This document shows, piece by piece, positions 1-5,517 of a DNA stretch of 5,517 nt. The translations under genes were made by a program, and so were the position numbers. Source of the DNA: Candidatus Heimdallarchaeota archaeon (GTDB lineage Archaea > Asgardarchaeota > Heimdallarchaeia > Hodarchaeales > LC-3); the NCBI GenBank assembly GCA_027364495.1, contig DAHXPE010000044.1:1-5517 (forward strand), given 5' to 3'. Positions within the stretch are counted from its first letter, which is position 1. Every line of letters begins with the position of its first letter. The notes beneath the pieces were generated by a model. That model made no database searches, was not told the origin of the DNA, and saw nothing but the letters and a program-made list of their open reading frames with translations.

Positions 1-30
1 ATATTTAAGTTTTGGCGTTTGGAAAAATCA

Positions 31-828
31 TTATGAAGCAAACCCCAAAAAAACCCTCTTTCCTTCTTTATATTTGAAATTATTATAAATTGTGGACAAA
101 GCCAATTTTTGTTTTTTCGTGGATTTGTCTTGCAAATCTGATTGAAACCCCCAGATCCAAATTAATTGTTTATATAATCCATAACCAATCCAATAACCGC
201 CTACGAGAATATTTATTATAATTGTTATGATTACGTAACTAATTATAAACTCTTTTGTCAAAAAATAAAAAGCAATTAAAGGTAGAATGAAAACTAAAAT
301 GATTGAGAGTATTTTTAGTGCAAATGTCGTTTCAAAATCATTAGATAAATCACCGATCATTTTATTGAGAAATTTAAAAATATAGGCATTTGGTCTTTCT
401 AGTTGCTTAAAAACTCCATTAAATTGAATGAGAAGAATTAAATTATTCAGAGTGATGAACAAAAGTAATAAATAATAGATATATGATGATGCGGTTATAG
501 AATTAATATACCAATAAATCAAAATTAAAATTGAAATAAAGTAAAATGAAGAAAAGTAAAAACTAGCTAAAAGAATTTTGTTGGATGGAGTTTTGCCATT
601 TTTGTCCAATTCATTATCCGATTTAAAATCTAGTTTATATTTTAACCAAAAATTAGTCAATATTATTAAAAATAAAAATGAAAAAACTAATAAAATAATT
701 AAAAAAATATATTTAGTTTTTGTTTGAGGCTTAAGAACTAAAAAAGCTGTAAATAAAATTATGGTCAATATAGTAATAATAATAATGAAATATCTATTTG
801 AGAAAGAATTTTGTTTTAAATTGGACAT
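31..828 (-). CDS. Six-helix integral membrane protein of unknown function
   Basis: I do not recognise a family. The 265-residue product (ATG at 828) is strongly hydrophobic. Hydrophobic segments suggest six membrane helices, roughly at residues 13-32, 39-61, 84-107, 115-136, 171-190 and 194-218. They fall into three pairs separated by polar loops at about 62-83 (Asp/Lys/Asn-rich) and 137-170. The C-terminal 45 residues are polar and Lys-rich (…STKKQKLAL…) and probably cytoplasmic. No catalytic or ligand-binding motif is visible, and no signal peptide separate from the first helix. The reading frame extends upstream to a TTG at 843, but the ATG at 828 is preferred because the five extra codons add nothing recognisable. 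The high Ile/Phe/Asn/Lys content partly reflects low GC. It is transcribed divergently from the small GTPase gene. A transporter component or membrane scaffold is possible but unsupported. The reading frame is convincing; the function is unknown. Confidence 0.75.
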   Translation of the reverse strand: MSNLKQNSFSNRYFIIIITILTIILFTAFLVLKPQTKTKYIFLIILLVFSFLFLIILTNFWLKYKLDFKSDNELDKNGKTPSNKILLASFYFSSFYFISILILIYWYINSITASSYIYYLLLLFITLNNLILLIQFNGVFKQLERPNAYIFKFLNKMIGDLSNDFETTFALKILSIILVFILPLIAFYFLTKEFIISYVIITIIINILVGGYWIGYGLYKQLIWIWGFQSDLQDKSTKKQKLALSTIYNNFKYKEGKRVFLGFAS

Positions 829-890
829 GGTAATGAAAACCAACTTTAATTCAAAAAATAAATTTACCTTTTATTAAAATAAATTTTTAG

Positions 891-900
891 CTATTATAAA
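891..900 (-). promoter_or_regulatory. Candidate TATA box for the membrane protein gene
   Basis: Read on the minus strand this is TTTATAATAG, preceded by an A-rich stretch that could act as a BRE. It lies about 65 bases upstream of the ATG at 828, which would give a 5' leader of roughly 40 bases if transcription starts about 25 bases downstream. The surroundings are so AT-rich that a chance match is quite possible, and an alternative (ATTTTAATAAAAGG, 868-881) exists closer to the gene. Confidence 0.3.
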
Positions 901-1022
901 TTGAATTTTGCATACTTTTAAGAGGCAGATAAAAAAGAAATAATTTAATATCAGGAAATAAGGAAATAAATATAATTCTATATCCACGATTTTTTTGGAA
1001 ATCTACTAATACAAGTAAAGGC

Positions 1023-1035
1023 TATTTAAAAAAAT
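1023..1035 (+). promoter_or_regulatory. Candidate archaeal TATA box/BRE for the GTPase operon
   Basis: TATTTAAAAAAAT is preceded directly by the purine-rich AAGTAAAGGC (1013-1022), a fair BRE plus TATA arrangement. Start of transcription about 25 bases downstream would fall near 1054, giving a leader of roughly 28 bases that includes the AGGAA ribosome binding site at 1068-1072. The spacing is consistent; identification rests on pattern only. Confidence 0.45.
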
Positions 1036-1067
1036 AATTCATTTCTAAAGATTTTATGAAACAGAAC

Positions 1068-1072
1068 AGGAA
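1068..1072 (+). promoter_or_regulatory. Ribosome binding site of the small GTPase gene
   Basis: AGGAA lies nine bases before the ATG at 1082. It supports that start and matches the usual anti-Shine-Dalgarno pairing. It is the clearest ribosome binding site in the window; the other genes have weak ones or none. Confidence 0.55.
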
Positions 1073-1081
1073 CATTAATAT

Positions 1082-1666
1082 ATGGCACAAATAACAAGAA
1101 AGAAAAAGGGTGAAAGAGTATTAAAGGTCATTCTAATCGGGGATCCTGGTGTAGGGAAATCATCATTGATCAATACTTATGTACATGGTAAATTTAAGCA
1201 TAGCTATCAAGTTACCATTGGTTTAGACGTTAGTTCTAAAATAGTTGAACTTACAGGTCAAGATGGCAAAAAAGAACTAGTTAAGCTTTCTATTAATGAT
1301 ATTGGTGGTCAAGAACGATTTAATACTATCAGACATTTATTCTATCCTGGTGCTCACCTAGTAATGTTTGTCTATGATGTAACGAGATTGCAGTCCTTAA
1401 AAAATCTGAAAACTGTTTGGGAATCTGAATTAGCTCAATATAACCCTCCTGAGGAAGGTGGTGAGAATATTCAAAAAATACTTGTGGGTAACAAAGCAGA
1501 TTTAGAAGATCTTAGAGTAATAACTGATGAGGAAGCTGAACAGACTTCTCGTGAGTTAGGTTGTCTTTCACAGATCTTGGCCTCAGCAAAAGAAAATAAA
1601 AATGTTGATGAAGCATTTACCCAATTAGCACAAGCATTTCTTGTTAAAACCGGAGTATTTAAATAA
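1082..1666 (+). CDS. Rab/Ras-like small GTPase
   Basis: A 194-residue GTP-binding switch protein of the Ras superfamily, closest by eye to Rab. All five G motifs are present: P-loop GDPGVGKSS (20-28), switch I Thr45 in VTIGLD, switch II DIGGQE (73-78) with the catalytic glutamine Gln77, NKAD (137-140) and SAK (168-170). The stretch from GQERFNTIR to FVYDVT (76-101) is typical of Rab proteins. Three points are odd: Pro22 occupies the Ras Gly12 position, the switch II motif is DxGGQ as in Arf and G-alpha rather than DTAGQ, and the C-terminus (KTGVFK) has no cysteine, so no prenylation is expected. The N-terminal extension is basic (RKKKGER), which might touch membrane or a partner. The start at 1082 is supported by AGGAA upstream. 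The gene precedes 1690-2391 by 23 bases, suggesting co-transcription and a possible partner. Such GTPases are numerous in Asgard archaea; the particular role is unknown. Confidence 0.96.
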   Translation: MAQITRKKKGERVLKVILIGDPGVGKSSLINTYVHGKFKHSYQVTIGLDVSSKIVELTGQDGKKELVKLSINDIGGQERFNTIRHLFYPGAHLVMFVYDVTRLQSLKNLKTVWESELAQYNPPEEGGENIQKILVGNKADLEDLRVITDEEAEQTSRELGCLSQILASAKENKNVDEAFTQLAQAFLVKTGVFK

Positions 1667-1675
1667 TTTTTTTTT
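1667..1675 (+). terminator. Oligo-T run between GTPase and downstream gene (possible partial terminator)
   Basis: Nine consecutive T directly follow the GTPase stop codon. Archaeal intrinsic termination depends mainly on U-rich tracts without a required hairpin, so this run could end a share of transcripts before the second gene. The gene start 15 bases further on and the short spacing favour partial read-through rather than complete termination. Confidence 0.4.
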
Positions 1676-1689
1676 ATGGAAAGATTAGA

Positions 1690-2391
1690 ATGGAAGCTGA
1701 AACTGAAATTAGTCAAGAAGAATCCCAATTGGATTCAAAACTATTAGAATGGGCATCTTACTTCTTACCATTTCAAGTACCATTAAAAGAGAAATGGAAA
1801 GAAATTCTCTTAGTCTTAAATGGTAGTTCCTGGCCAGTTAAAAGTTTCCTTAAGAGTAATGCTAGAGCAAGAGGAACTTTACATGTCCTTGAGCTATTTG
1901 AAGGTGTTTTGTTAATTGCACCTGAAGTTGTGTCTAGAAGTGCAACCACGAGAGGGATTTTTAGAATTCTTCTTTTCAATGATATTGCTTTGATACAAGA
2001 TGATGCCGATCAAGTTTCAAAAAATTTCTTTAAAGATTATTTATTACCAATATTAGAACTTACTGAAGAAGAAATTAAGGAAATCAGGATAAATGCAATG
2101 AGAATTCGAAGCTTAGCAAGAAAAATTACCCCAATTAAACTTACATTACTAGTTAATAATCAAACAGCTGGAGTTGATGGTTTAGAACAAATTACGTTAT
2201 CCGGGCATAATGTAATACGTGGTATTCAAACATTGAAGGATCGACAAGAAGTTGATCTTAAAGCCGATTCTATTGGTCCATGGATTGACATTGAAACAAC
2301 TTCCTTGCGTTTTACTATGGGAAAAGGTATTTTATTAAAAGAGGGTGCGTCAAAAGAAGTTATAGATGTCGTAAAATCGACTTTAGCATAA
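1690..2391 (+). CDS. Conserved-looking hypothetical protein in operon with the small GTPase
   Basis: I do not recognise a family. The product has 233 residues, is soluble, and has no signal peptide, membrane helix or cysteine. The first 20 residues are acidic (MEAETEISQEE…), followed by a probable amphipathic helix and a Trp/Pro-containing segment (21-49). Residues 60-105 alternate hydrophobic stretches like beta strands (TLHVLELF, GVLLIAPEV, IFRILLFNDIALI). An acidic helix follows at about 118-133, then a basic stretch (138-147), a strand (LTLLVNN), and a C-terminal part containing SGHNVIRGI and GPWIDIETT. The ATG at 1690 follows GGAAAG (1679-1684), a weak ribosome binding site. The gene starts 23 bases after the GTPase stop. 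That position makes a GTPase effector, regulator or scaffold an attractive guess, but the sequence itself shows no GAP, GEF, longin or roadblock signature that I can identify. Codon use matches the neighbours, so it is probably a genuine resident gene. Confidence 0.85.
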   Translation: MEAETEISQEESQLDSKLLEWASYFLPFQVPLKEKWKEILLVLNGSSWPVKSFLKSNARARGTLHVLELFEGVLLIAPEVVSRSATTRGIFRILLFNDIALIQDDADQVSKNFFKDYLLPILELTEEEIKEIRINAMRIRSLARKITPIKLTLLVNNQTAGVDGLEQITLSGHNVIRGIQTLKDRQEVDLKADSIGPWIDIETTSLRFTMGKGILLKEGASKEVIDVVKSTLA

Positions 2392-2403
2392 AAGTAACAA
2401 GTT

Positions 2404-4848
2404 TTAGATTTTTTTATGTTTTCTTTTTATTATTACAATTGCAGAGACAATCAGAACAGTAGCAATTAAAGAGAATGAAAATAGGTTTTGCATAGATGAT
2501 GTGGATGAGGAAGAGGATGATGAGATTATATAAGTAGTCGGATTATTATTAAATGTTGGGTAGTAGGTGGGAGAATAGCTAGTTATTTGAGAAATAAGTG
2601 ATTCATTGCCTTTAAGCCAAGTTAGAAGGTTCAATAAAAATTTACAATCATTTCTATAATTTCCATTTGAATAGGGGTTGAGCATGTAATTTTCTGCAAA
2701 ATACGCACTGCCACTTACAATAATCCTTCCACTATCTGGTGTTGTCCTAGACAAATTATTGAGTAGTAAAAATTTATTATTTTCCAGGGCAATTGTGTTA
2801 TTATTCGTATTTAAAGAGGTAAATGAGGTTCCATAATAATCAAGACTTGAAACGGAATTAAAAATTGCATTTGAACTATTGATCTGTAATGGTTCATTGT
2901 CATAAATTGCACCTGAAGTTAAATTATATCCTATATTAAACGAACTCAATATTGAATTAAAAGCTGTTGTATTAGTAAACCTTTGATCAGACGTCATAAT
3001 TAAAATACTTTTTGAATCTTCCTTAACATAGGCATTCAATGTGGATAGCTCAGTTGATGTAAACAAGAGGGTTGGTTCTGTTAATTTAAACAAATTTCCA
3101 AATAATGGATCATTATACCAATCAGTAAATGGATTTGTTACCATAGAATTTGGGTAAGAAAATATGATTTCATCGAAATTTTGCAAATAGGTCAGGTTAG
3201 TATATTGACCAGTATAAAATGGAGTGATTGATATATTGTTTAATGCCATAATATTATAGAATTCTCGATATTGACCAAGCAAGAATGTTGAAAAACCCCA
3301 TGGATCTTGTAAAGCCGGATCATGTGTCGTTGCTAATTGATATTGCCCATGCGGTTTTTTTTCGTTTATAAAACCATTTTTTGTCTCATCAAATAACACT
3401 TTAATAACAGGAATTTTCACCGTGAATTCTATAGAGACATTTACAGTAGGACCCAGAGAAAAATCAAGTAATAAAAAGCCTTTATATAATCCAGGTTTTG
3501 TGGTAGATGTCGGATGAAATAATAAACTTAATCTATCACTAGCATTAAAATATTGAATTTTGTTAAAACTCATGGTATCGGTTGGTATGCCATGAAGGGA
3601 TATAGTTGCACTATTATATATTGATGAAATAACAGTCAAATTAAAAGGAACCGTTTGGTCAATGAAAAGATTATTGAGGGGGATTACAGGTAATTGAGTT
3701 GGAAAAGCTGTTGCTATTATCGGGACATTATTTGAAGATTTTGGTTCGCTCATTAATAAATTGAAGGCAGCTGTAAAGTTCACCATTCCAGCTCCTTGAT
3801 ACCAGATAGGATAATTAGGAATTGGATCAGCAGTTTTAATTAAAGCAGCTTTAATCGCACCAACTGTATAACTTCGACCATTTTTTGCAAGTGCTTGTAT
3901 TAATACTGCAATTCCACCAGCTACAATTGGAGCTGATTCTGAGGTACCAGACTCTAATCCAAGTATGGTATTAACTCCAACCCCAGGTGCACTTACATCA
4001 GGTTTCATAGTATAATCGCTTCTTATACCAGATGAACTAAAACTAGCCATGTTATACCGTCCGTTTGACGCTGCAACTGTTATGGCTTGAAAAGATGTCC
4101 CAGGAGTGCCAATAGATGCTCCGTCTACACCACTTAATCCATCGTTTCCAGCGGAAATAGTGAATATGACATTATATTTTTTACTCATTTGATCGACTAT
4201 ATATTGACGTCCATCATTTACAATATTAGAGTATTGACCAAATGATAAGTTGATGACAGAAGCACCATGTTGTACACAATATAAAATGCCATTATAAACG
4301 CCACGCGTGGTTTCTTCACCCTGATACCCTGCATTGCCAGCTATACCGTTGCTATATATTTTGGCTGCGACTAGTTTAGCTCCTTTAGCCATACCATAAG
4401 TATTTCCAATTAATAAACTAGCTACCTCAGTACCATGACCAAAAGAATCAGTAATAGTAGAATCATTGCCCGCATAATTATTAGCTGTCGAAACGAAACT
4501 TTTAGTAGCAATAACCCTTGATCCAAATTCACTTGCAAATGTTGTATTAGAAATGAAATTATAAACACCAGTGTCGACTAATCCAATGATCACACCTGTT
4601 CCATCATAACCTTGATTTATTAGCCCAGATAGACCAACGGCTAGTTGAATCTGTCCTGTTGTCATATTAATTTCATTAGTTGAACCCACTGACGCTAAAT
4701 CAGTTTTTGATGTAGAATTAGCTGATTCATTTTTATTAGAAAGAATAGTTAATGGTAAAGAACTAGATGAACAATCAGCAAGAGAAAAGATAGATATTAA
4801 TAAAATAATATTGATAAAAATTACGATAAAAAAACTAGCTTTGTGCAT
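2404..4848 (-). CDS. Membrane-anchored subtilisin-like serine protease with site-1-protease-like architecture (S8 family)
   Basis: This 814-residue protein is a secreted subtilase held on the outer membrane face. Residues 5-22 form a signal sequence. The S8 domain (about 62-365) carries Asp92 (GLVDTGV), His138 (FGHGTEVA), oxyanion Asn235 (ISAGNDG) and Ser303 (GTSESAP), so it should be active. A beta-rich domain follows (about 373-480), then an alpha/beta Rossmann-like domain (480-745) beginning VLFDETKNG and ending with SGRIIVSG and NDCKFLLNLL. A Ser/Thr-rich stalk (776-785), one membrane helix (789-807) and a basic tail (RKHKK) complete a type I topology. Order and local motifs recall eukaryotic MBTPS1/SKI-1, judged from memory rather than alignment. 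About 17 Asn-X-Ser/Thr sites imply heavy glycosylation. Only about 35 residues separate the signal from the catalytic domain, too few for a standard I9 propeptide. The ATG at 4848 is right because it opens the signal sequence. It converges on 1690-2391 and diverges from guaB. Substrates are unknown; a general extracellular peptidase is the alternative. Confidence 0.95.
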   Translation of the reverse strand: MHKASFFIVIFINIILLISIFSLADCSSSSLPLTILSNKNESANSTSKTDLASVGSTNEINMTTGQIQLAVGLSGLINQGYDGTGVIIGLVDTGVYNFISNTTFASEFGSRVIATKSFVSTANNYAGNDSTITDSFGHGTEVASLLIGNTYGMAKGAKLVAAKIYSNGIAGNAGYQGEETTRGVYNGILYCVQHGASVINLSFGQYSNIVNDGRQYIVDQMSKKYNVIFTISAGNDGLSGVDGASIGTPGTSFQAITVAASNGRYNMASFSSSGIRSDYTMKPDVSAPGVGVNTILGLESGTSESAPIVAGGIAVLIQALAKNGRSYTVGAIKAALIKTADPIPNYPIWYQGAGMVNFTAAFNLLMSEPKSSNNVPIIATAFPTQLPVIPLNNLFIDQTVPFNLTVISSIYNSATISLHGIPTDTMSFNKIQYFNASDRLSLLFHPTSTTKPGLYKGFLLLDFSLGPTVNVSIEFTVKIPVIKVLFDETKNGFINEKKPHGQYQLATTHDPALQDPWGFSTFLLGQYREFYNIMALNNISITPFYTGQYTNLTYLQNFDEIIFSYPNSMVTNPFTDWYNDPLFGNLFKLTEPTLLFTSTELSTLNAYVKEDSKSILIMTSDQRFTNTTAFNSILSSFNIGYNLTSGAIYDNEPLQINSSNAIFNSVSSLDYYGTSFTSLNTNNNTIALENNKFLLLNNLSRTTPDSGRIIVSGSAYFAENYMLNPYSNGNYRNDCKFLLNLLTWLKGNESLISQITSYSPTYYPTFNNNPTTYIISSSSSSSTSSMQNLFSFSLIATVLIVSAIVIIKRKHKKI
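2409..2434 (+). terminator. T-rich terminator of the GTPase operon, embedded in the protease 3' end
   Basis: After the stop at 2391 the plus strand runs into T7 (2409-2415), then ATG, TTTT, C and TTTTT with further T-rich sequence. This suits archaeal U-tract termination. It lies inside the opposite gene: the T tracts are the antisense of the Lys/Ile codons for the protease's basic tail. No strong hairpin precedes it. Confidence 0.45.
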
Positions 4849-4902
4849 TAATGAACAGTTCCATATTAAGTTATCTTATTACATTGGTCTAATGAAATGT
4901 TT

Positions 4903-4912
4903 TTTTTTATAA
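4903..4912 (-). promoter_or_regulatory. Candidate TATA box of the protease gene
   Basis: On the minus strand this reads TTATAAAAAA, within a longer A run. It is centred about 60 bases upstream of the ATG at 4848, implying a leader of roughly 34 bases. No convincing Shine-Dalgarno precedes the start (GGAAC at 4857-4861 is the nearest purine group). This is a pattern match in AT-rich DNA. Confidence 0.4.
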
Positions 4913-5000
4913 TTATATTGATTTAAGTTGTAAATGAAAATTTAAGTATCCTCTCATTTATTTTTAATTGAATAAATTGAAATTAATATTAAAATTTTTT

Positions 5001-5010
5001 AATTATAACT
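5001..5010 (+). promoter_or_regulatory. Candidate TATA box of guaB, implying a leaderless transcript
   Basis: AATTATAACT is centred about 25 bases before the ATG at 5030. Transcription from it would begin at or very near the start codon. No purine-rich ribosome binding site is visible between this element and the ATG, which agrees with leaderless translation, common in archaea. The AT-rich background weakens the call. Confidence 0.35.
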
Positions 5011-5029
5011 TATTAAATTGTGCTTCATT

Positions 5030-5491
5030 ATGAATCCATTAGAAACTGCATTAACTTTTGATGATTTATTATTAGTGCCTAAACGTTTTCGCGGTACCAG
5101 CCGTTCTGAAATCTCGACTGCTACTAAATTCACCAAAAAAATTTCTTTAAATATACCAGTTGTGTCTTCAAATATGGACACAGTAACAGAGTCAGAAATG
5201 GCTATCGTAATGGCTAGAAGTGGTGGTATTGGCGTAATTCATCGTTTTTTGCCCATTGAAAAACAAGTCAAATTGATCAGGCAAGTAAAACGTGCTCAAA
5301 ATTACATTATTGAGAAACCTTATTCTTTGCCAATATCTTCGACTATAAATGATGTCAGAAATCTTATGAATCAATACCATGTCTCAGGAATTTTGATTAC
5401 AGATAAAAATGAAATTCTTAAAGGAATAATTACTAATAGGGATCTAAGGTTCACTGAAAATAACGGTGCTGATAATGTAGAATGTCCATGA
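5030..5491 (+). CDS. guaB: IMP dehydrogenase, N-terminal part only (frame stops early near window end)
   Basis: IMP dehydrogenase oxidises IMP to XMP with NAD+, the first committed step of GMP synthesis in the cytoplasm. The family signature is clear: ALTFDDLLLVP (7-17), NIPVVSSNMDTVTE (41-54), ARSGGIGVIHR (62-72), then the first CBS module of the Bateman domain (about 96-142) ending GIITNRDLRF. The usual protein is about 480-500 residues; here a TGA at 5489-5491 ends it at residue 153, before the second CBS module and the catalytic cysteine loop, so this fragment could not be active. The stop lies 26 bases from the window end, and the in-frame codons after it (AISITNAS) could continue the linker into CBS2, so a sequencing or assembly error, or a recent nonsense mutation, is likely. 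The ATG at 5030 is preferred over a TTG at 5018 because the family starts just before this motif. Its divergent neighbour is the protease. Confidence 0.9.
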   Translation: MNPLETALTFDDLLLVPKRFRGTSRSEISTATKFTKKISLNIPVVSSNMDTVTESEMAIVMARSGGIGVIHRFLPIEKQVKLIRQVKRAQNYIIEKPYSLPISSTINDVRNLMNQYHVSGILITDKNEILKGIITNRDLRFTENNGADNVECP

Positions 5492-5517
5492 GCTATATCG
5501 ATAACTAATGCATCCAC

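Follow-up and report, generated by a model that had tools for sequence, protein, structure and literature searches.

Does an Asgard archaeon encode a protease built like the site-1 protease (S1P, also known as MBTPS1 or SKI-1) of eukaryotes? The question is raised by a 5,517-nucleotide stretch of DNA from Candidatus Heimdallarchaeota archaeon (contig DAHXPE010000044.1, positions 1 to 5,517; hereafter the window), in which a single open frame of 814 codons with an ATG start runs along the minus strand at 2404-4848. An earlier note had read its product as an archaeal protease with the full domain order of S1P. That note took S1P for an intramembrane protease, which is the description of S2P; S1P is a luminal, membrane-anchored protease that cleaves membrane proteins after RX(L/V)X motifs and controls ATF6 signalling. 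In passages of PMC11231238, S1P is further described as controlling SREBP signalling and as being singled out within the proprotein convertase family by its GIFT domain. By prediction, the architecture and fold of the window protein match those of S1P, and the protein most likely works like S1P in build, with a serine protease head that is held at the membrane and braced by GIFT.

The 814-residue protein, a membrane-anchored subtilase of the S8-GIFT type (2404..4848; all its parts lie on the minus strand), was delimited from the open reading frame, Pfam, relatives and a structure model. It begins with a signal sequence (residues 1-25, 4774..4848; hydropathy 2.89 from residue 6, helix 3-20 in the model), followed by an S8 catalytic domain (residues 64-368, 3745..4659; Pfam, alignment and residue check). 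PF00082 matched residues 83-341 with an E-value of 2e-39, and the D-H-S triad and oxyanion Asn of that family are present as Asp92 (4573-4575), His138 (4435-4437), Ser303 (3940-3942) and Asn235 (4144-4146). A beta domain (residues 379-480, 3409..3714; model strands at 379-478) occupies the position of the P-like domain of S1P and leads into the GIFT domain, which is alpha/beta and GATase1-like (residues 481-746, 2611..3408; 482-746 in the model), a stalk rich in Ser, Thr, Asn and Pro (residues 747-788, 2485..2610), a single membrane helix (residues 789-807, 2428..2484; hydropathy 2.77, helix 790-813 in the model) and a short basic tail (residues 808-814, KRKHKKI, 2407..2427). The hydrophobic segments begin at residues 6 and 789, five of the final 12 residues are Lys or Arg, and the one C-terminal membrane helix with a basic tail that marks S1P is present as judged by hydropathy. 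Hydropathy and model thus agree with the signal sequence, beta-rich and alpha/beta domains, stalk, single helix and basic tail described earlier, and the four catalytic residues named with them were confirmed and are near-invariant in a pool of 62 Asgard proteins (counting only alignment rows with a letter at the column, Asp in 59/59, His in 60/60, Asn in 61/62 and Ser in 60/61). The sole deviant in the pool, L048 (2032-5868, minus strand), has Ala in place of the catalytic Ser and Asp in place of the oxyanion Asn; it also carries the best score for PF23090, the Pfam model of the fourth domain of S1P, and is likely an S8-GIFT pseudoprotease. Eleven relatives of similar length, at 33-81% identity and including one from Odinarchaeota, indicate that the protease gene is no chance open reading frame.

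S1P itself (PDB 8UW8, 9CSD) has the same order of S8, beta and GIFT domains, stalk, one membrane helix and basic tail. It differs in possessing an inhibitory prodomain and in that the tail of the window protein is short. No match to the S1P prodomain (PF23001) was found in the window protein, and only about 40 residues separate the signal sequence from the catalytic domain, which indicates that a prodomain of the S1P type is absent; the domain order proposed earlier therefore holds from the catalytic domain onward and fails before it. The Odinarchaeal relative (P0012) has an extended N-terminus that resembles a protease prodomain by eye, which raises the possibility that the lineage of the window has lost its prodomain. 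N-glycosylation motifs were not enriched: the protein has 18, and shuffled sequences had 15.1 on average.

Comparison of the predicted structure with human S1P, which had been suggested as a check, came out in favor of the likeness. S1P was the top Foldseek match of the whole model (1.8e-29), and of the 50 entries listed by VIA, the two for S1P alone extended past residue 478; cucumisin, SBT3 and streptococcal proteases aligned at similar length only with a root mean square deviation of about 10-14 and a TM-score of about 0.3. When VIA was applied to the Foldseek top 1000 of the C-terminal model, two IFT52 entries came first and two S1P entries next, and the beta-domain part fell within the S1P structural alignment. 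The protein therefore shows, as S1P does, a GIFT-fold domain behind a beta domain after S8, and structural alignment and family profiles both assign that domain the alpha/beta fold of the IFT52/OST48 type. IFT52 and OST48 have the GIFT domain in common with the window protein and are not known to carry a protease domain. As to the earlier caution that the tail might be of a generic DUF4350-like kind, seven of the 12 family members matched DUF4350 with an E-value of 1 or less, the best being 8.6e-5; in the model, this DUF4350-like tail has the GIFT fold.

By sequence, the likeness of the tail emerged through relatives. The GIFT domains of the 62 Asgard proteins matched animal S1P with hhalign P 99 and E 2.1e-18 (for a single comparison, not a database) and with an hmmsearch E-value of 5.7e-20 (scaled to a database of 177,635). 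This match, and that of the broad profile A4 (26 rows), is partly circular because some loci were picked by PF23090. Thirty-four proteins found only via the window family gave a best S1P match of 1.1e-4 (hhalign P 97, E 4e-11). In profile searches of PDB, the unbiased profile A3 (18 rows) scored IFT52 at 1.6e-6 and S1P at 0.0026, and A4 scored IFT52 at 2.4e-20, S1P at 2e-17 and OST48 at 0.02. Since the broad and unbiased profiles match S1P, the set nearest to the window does not, and IFT52 scores at least equally, we conclude from these profiles that GIFT homology to S1P runs through relatives and is common with IFT52, not special to S1P. A comparison of 12 Asgard with 27 animal S1P tails (hhalign E 0.05 for both domains, 0.02 for the last, 0.26 for the beta domain) was of no use because both sides are narrow. 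The beta domain found no hmmsearch match to its S1P counterpart with either protein set of the GIFT study. None of the Pfam S1P models matched the window protein; PF23090 did not match it, nor was it listed in the 12 members (E up to 1), and PF23355 (IFT52_GIFT) matched one of the 12 weakly (E 0.08). A homologue search with the tail of P0147 had no S1P among the eight listed (query included). The profile check proposed by the earlier note is thus borne out for the GIFT domain by way of relatives, while the window protein falls below the S1P models and its beta domain lacks a match; the human motif that the note had quoted as VLWDQFHN reads VLWDQYHN.

Two genes adjoin the protease on the plus strand of the window. 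The first (1082..1666) encodes a Rab-like small GTPase (Pfam Ras, 1.6e-43) whose best PDB match was Ypt7 (3.4e-31), followed by Sec4, Rab10 and Rab1B. The second (1690..2391) encodes an orphan of 233 residues, p233, which had no Pfam match and found nothing in PDB below E 1.6; its homologues, of about 290 residues, are linked to the same genes in relatives. The p233 family had one match each in 67 of the 227 genomes of our Asgard survey, which covers one phylum, Asgard by inference; it was chosen by way of L001 (below), and a near relative of one of its proteases is recorded as Promethearchaeota. In a sister clade, eight genomes with a full-length protease (L132-L138, L171) carry GTPase, p233 homologue and protease in that order on the same strand, with gaps of 3-74 bases; in the window the three are likewise adjacent, with the protease inverted. 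Among strong p233 matches, the GTPase adjoined in 11/11 and the protease in eight, and the 17 remoter p233 loci (L176-L192) had a GTPase above 100 bits nearby in L184 and a 47-bit fragment in L179. A genome-contig scan with the GTPase as query found two loci; in an archaeal metagenome-assembled genome (L001) the GTPase is 49% identical to that of the window, and the GTPase-p233 pair lies at the contig end. These matches identify GTPase and p233 as the core pair and the protease as an additional partner. For the linkage we count two lineages, the window and the sister clade, rather than eight cases. Passages of PMC10927574 describe a Haloferax archaeal vesiculating GTPase that likewise works with two operon partners, and parts of PMC10933270 state that the small GTPase genes of the Asgard archaeon MK-D1 generally do not share operons with genes for roadblock, longin or TRAPPC3.

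Taken as a whole, we consider it moderately probable that the window protein is an S1P-like, type I membrane-anchored Asgard subtilase that is gated by its GIFT domain and linked to the GTPase and p233; of this reading, we infer the topology, gating, substrates and GTPase link. The signal sequence would export the protease and the single helix would tether it to the outside of the cell membrane, leaving the short basic tail in the cytoplasm. The protease, beta and GIFT domains may make up a single head, carried by a flexible stalk, in which GIFT, by analogy with what is reported for S1P, would pack on protease loops by the oxyanion hole and gate substrate access. Such gating would imply that the head cuts other surface or membrane proteins in their juxtamembrane parts, and the outcome would be site-1 cleavage, shedding or surface-protein maturation rather than bulk digestion of food proteins. 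In the lineage of the window, the protease probably belongs to one pathway with the Rab-like GTPase and p233 on the cytoplasmic side.

Several results weigh against this reading. The structure model is of moderate confidence (pLDDT 69.7, pTM 0.72, 12 sequences), and when the C-terminal part alone was searched with Foldseek, S1P lay outside the listed top 50, which held glycosidases, HYDIN-type and other beta domains. Searched by itself, the window protein did not match the S1P tail in sequence, and the GIFT domains of its nearest 20 proteins gave a best S1P match of 0.26, which is not significant. The remaining points concern the neighborhood: the protease is convergent to GTPase and p233 in the window and therefore lies outside their transcript; in three of 11 sister-clade genomes (L173-L175) GTPase and p233 are present and no protease was found in the 2.6-4 kb beyond; and a GTPase above 50 bits was found in 0/17 stretches around other S8-GIFT loci (L155-L170, L172), some of them short and one (L164) with a GTPase at 17 bits. 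The inversion and the three genomes also favor the view that GTPase, p233 and protease stand together by descent only, as does the fact that the eight linked genomes form one clade and seven of their proteases one starred clade of the S8 tree. However, the trio has stayed adjacent though proteases of the two lineages are just 30-33% identical (window against seven sister loci; GTPase 54-57%, p233 27-32%), and the IMP dehydrogenase fragment and membrane open reading frame of the window had no match at 1e-3 in the sister loci (8.5-10 kb). We regard descent without function as a serious alternative, at somewhat less than an even chance.

Related proteases are widespread in this archaeal group, the closest to eukaryotes. 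Profile A1 matched 210/227 Asgard genomes at 1e-10; among the matches listed, many reach the model end and many others extend little past the S8 domain. A broad tail profile matched 226/227 Asgard genomes, as GIFT-type tails in which fused S8 was not verified in all, against 63/221 genomes of the cyanobacterial phylum. PF23090 matched 92/227 Asgard genomes with an E-value of 1 or less and 14/227 above cut-off; 13 of these 14 were inspected, and the subtilase motif lay in the same frame in 11 and not in G160 and G076. Of the 14 control genomes one matched (B. subtilis) and none passed the cut-off, and in the phylum of the Calothrix genome (L002) 19/221 matched and 1/221 passed (G246, a split gene). 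PF23094, the model of the P-like third domain, matched 2/227 Asgard genomes at E up to 0.01 and 0/227 above cut-off. At Asgard loci chosen by the S8 model alone, GIFT lay behind the protease in 12/30, with four of these 12 genes also in the GIFT profile and six of the other 18 end-cut; the corresponding figures were 0/25 cyanobacterial loci, 0/13 bacterial homologues and 0/4 plasmid loci, three of them end-cut. Among plasmids, 611 records matched P0147, and in no record did a single place cover 80% of it; the alignments of the 20 listed stop by residue 568; the tail of L049 had no plasmid match. No protease relative was found in viral contigs or in a genome-contig scan with A1.

Whether eukaryotic S1P descends directly from such an Asgard protease, with the window protein as a relative of its ancestor, was addressed with trees. 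In the S8 tree (85 of 159 filtered domains after identity thinning, in a careful IQ-TREE run with five animal rows for S1P; the filter had dropped P0009, P0022 and P0148, among others), S1P sat on a branch of 1.77 with eight bacterial subtilases at an unstarred support of 83/71. This group was nested in a 61-row clade (92/94) holding all Asgard S8-GIFT rows of the set. Approximately unbiased (AU) tests, with groups defined after tree inspection, gave p-AU 0.066 for S1P joined to the 15-row clade of the window, 0.369 for a 26-row clade and 0.203 for another Asgard clade of 14 rows. Joining S1P to every Asgard row in the 61-row clade, bacteria excluded, cost 0.66 log units (p-AU 0.325; 53 rows, five without GIFT found, three of those incomplete). 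The GIFT tree had weak deep branches and left S1P without placement. The tree proposed earlier as a check thus yielded a weak bacterial placement of S1P. Because it leaves ancestry undecided, and because the protein lacks the prodomain and a match to the curated model, we did not file the window protein as S1P.

The small cost of the S1P-Asgard grouping, the like composite order and fold, and the prevalence of GIFT-type tails across the phylum argue for direct descent; the free tree and the unplaced S1P of the GIFT tree argue against it, as do an S1P sample of animals only and an archaeal search of one phylum. We hold direct descent to be a tentative possibility, well short of even; the observation itself is real. 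Equally tentative is the alternative that S1P and the Asgard proteins fused subtilase and GIFT separately, in a parallel assembly from common parts. S8 and GIFT are each found apart, the beta domains lack profile homology, and the tail profile is at least as near IFT52 as S1P. Vpr, Tk-SP and the high-mass S8 subtilases of Streptomyces and Bacillales have the catalytic domain in common with the window protein; Vpr and Tk-SP outscore S1P with the S8-part profile, and catalytic-domain identity is 37% to Tk-SP and 27% to S1P. As a difference, the 13 bacterial homologues and four plasmid loci surveyed here showed no GIFT domain. Some bacteria, moreover, carry S8 and GIFT as separate neighboring genes. 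Against parallel assembly stand the same order with an intervening beta domain and the whole-ectodomain superposition. The bolder proposition that the S8-beta-GIFT protease was assembled in Asgards before eukaryotes, gave rise to S1P and, in the lineage of the window, had by then been coupled to a Rab-like GTPase seems unlikely to us; if true, a protease with a later role in endomembrane signalling was part of a small-GTPase membrane system when endomembranes did not yet exist.

The weakest alternative, an ordinary nutritional surface subtilase whose tail is a mere spacer from the surface, could draw on the many S8 proteases of Asgards (found in 55/59 genomes with E-values of 1e-20 or lower, and with as many as 14 matches in a single genome) and on a C-terminus faintly like a surface anchor (Heimdall-CTERM, NF045529, at 15.1 bits, below the cut-off of 24; 2/12 members at E up to 0.1), but it is rather unlikely, as a digestive enzyme would need neither the kept GIFT domain nor a site beside the GTPase-p233 pair kept in two lineages.

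In the open-licence literature, mostly without subscription journals and bioRxiv, we found no paper that pairs Asgard with site-1 protease or the GIFT domain; Asgard, small GTPase and subtilase were not found together, and Asgard and MBTPS1 only in a fish-feed context. A counterpart of the whole ectodomain with relatives across Asgards opens the origin of site-1 cleavage to testing, endows the archaeal parent group of eukaryotes with GIFT domains related to those of both S1P and IFT52, and makes prodomain-free archaeal enzymes available for work on mechanism.

The split bacterial genes form adjacent pairs on the same strand in seven loci of the cyanobacterial phylum (L146-L152; seven of nine loci chosen for GIFT matches), with five overlaps of 11-17 bases and one 2-base gap, the second start being ambiguous in L151; L153 had no S8 in its stretch, and the GIFT frame of L154 was not recovered. 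As in the fusion of the window, the parts are neighbors on one strand; unlike it, they are two polypeptides, both with a lipoprotein-like start by eye in L146-L150, rather than one membrane-spanning chain. These side-by-side genes suggest that S8 and GIFT work together in a partnership extending beyond Asgards and eukaryotes.

Several Asgard S8-GIFT proteins depart from the build of the window protein. Ten (L021, L022, L024-L026, L029, L030, L032, L034, L038), of 656-702 residues, terminate directly behind GIFT, with neither stalk nor membrane helix seen. Three large ones (L049, L051, L064; 1257-1308 residues) have, by eye, a C-terminal CxxC...CxxC tail like a zinc ribbon, and directly upstream of the gene in L049 a lone GIFT protein with a membrane helix is encoded at 471-1673 (71.6 bits). 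In L139, another S8-GIFT gene lies behind two GTPase-like genes. The window also holds a likely gene for a hydrophobic protein (31-843, minus strand) as well as the beginning of an IMP dehydrogenase gene (5018-5491, plus strand), likewise likely; its frame stops after 157 residues, directly behind the CBS match and 26 bases from the window end, and is either a truncated gene or a sequence error.
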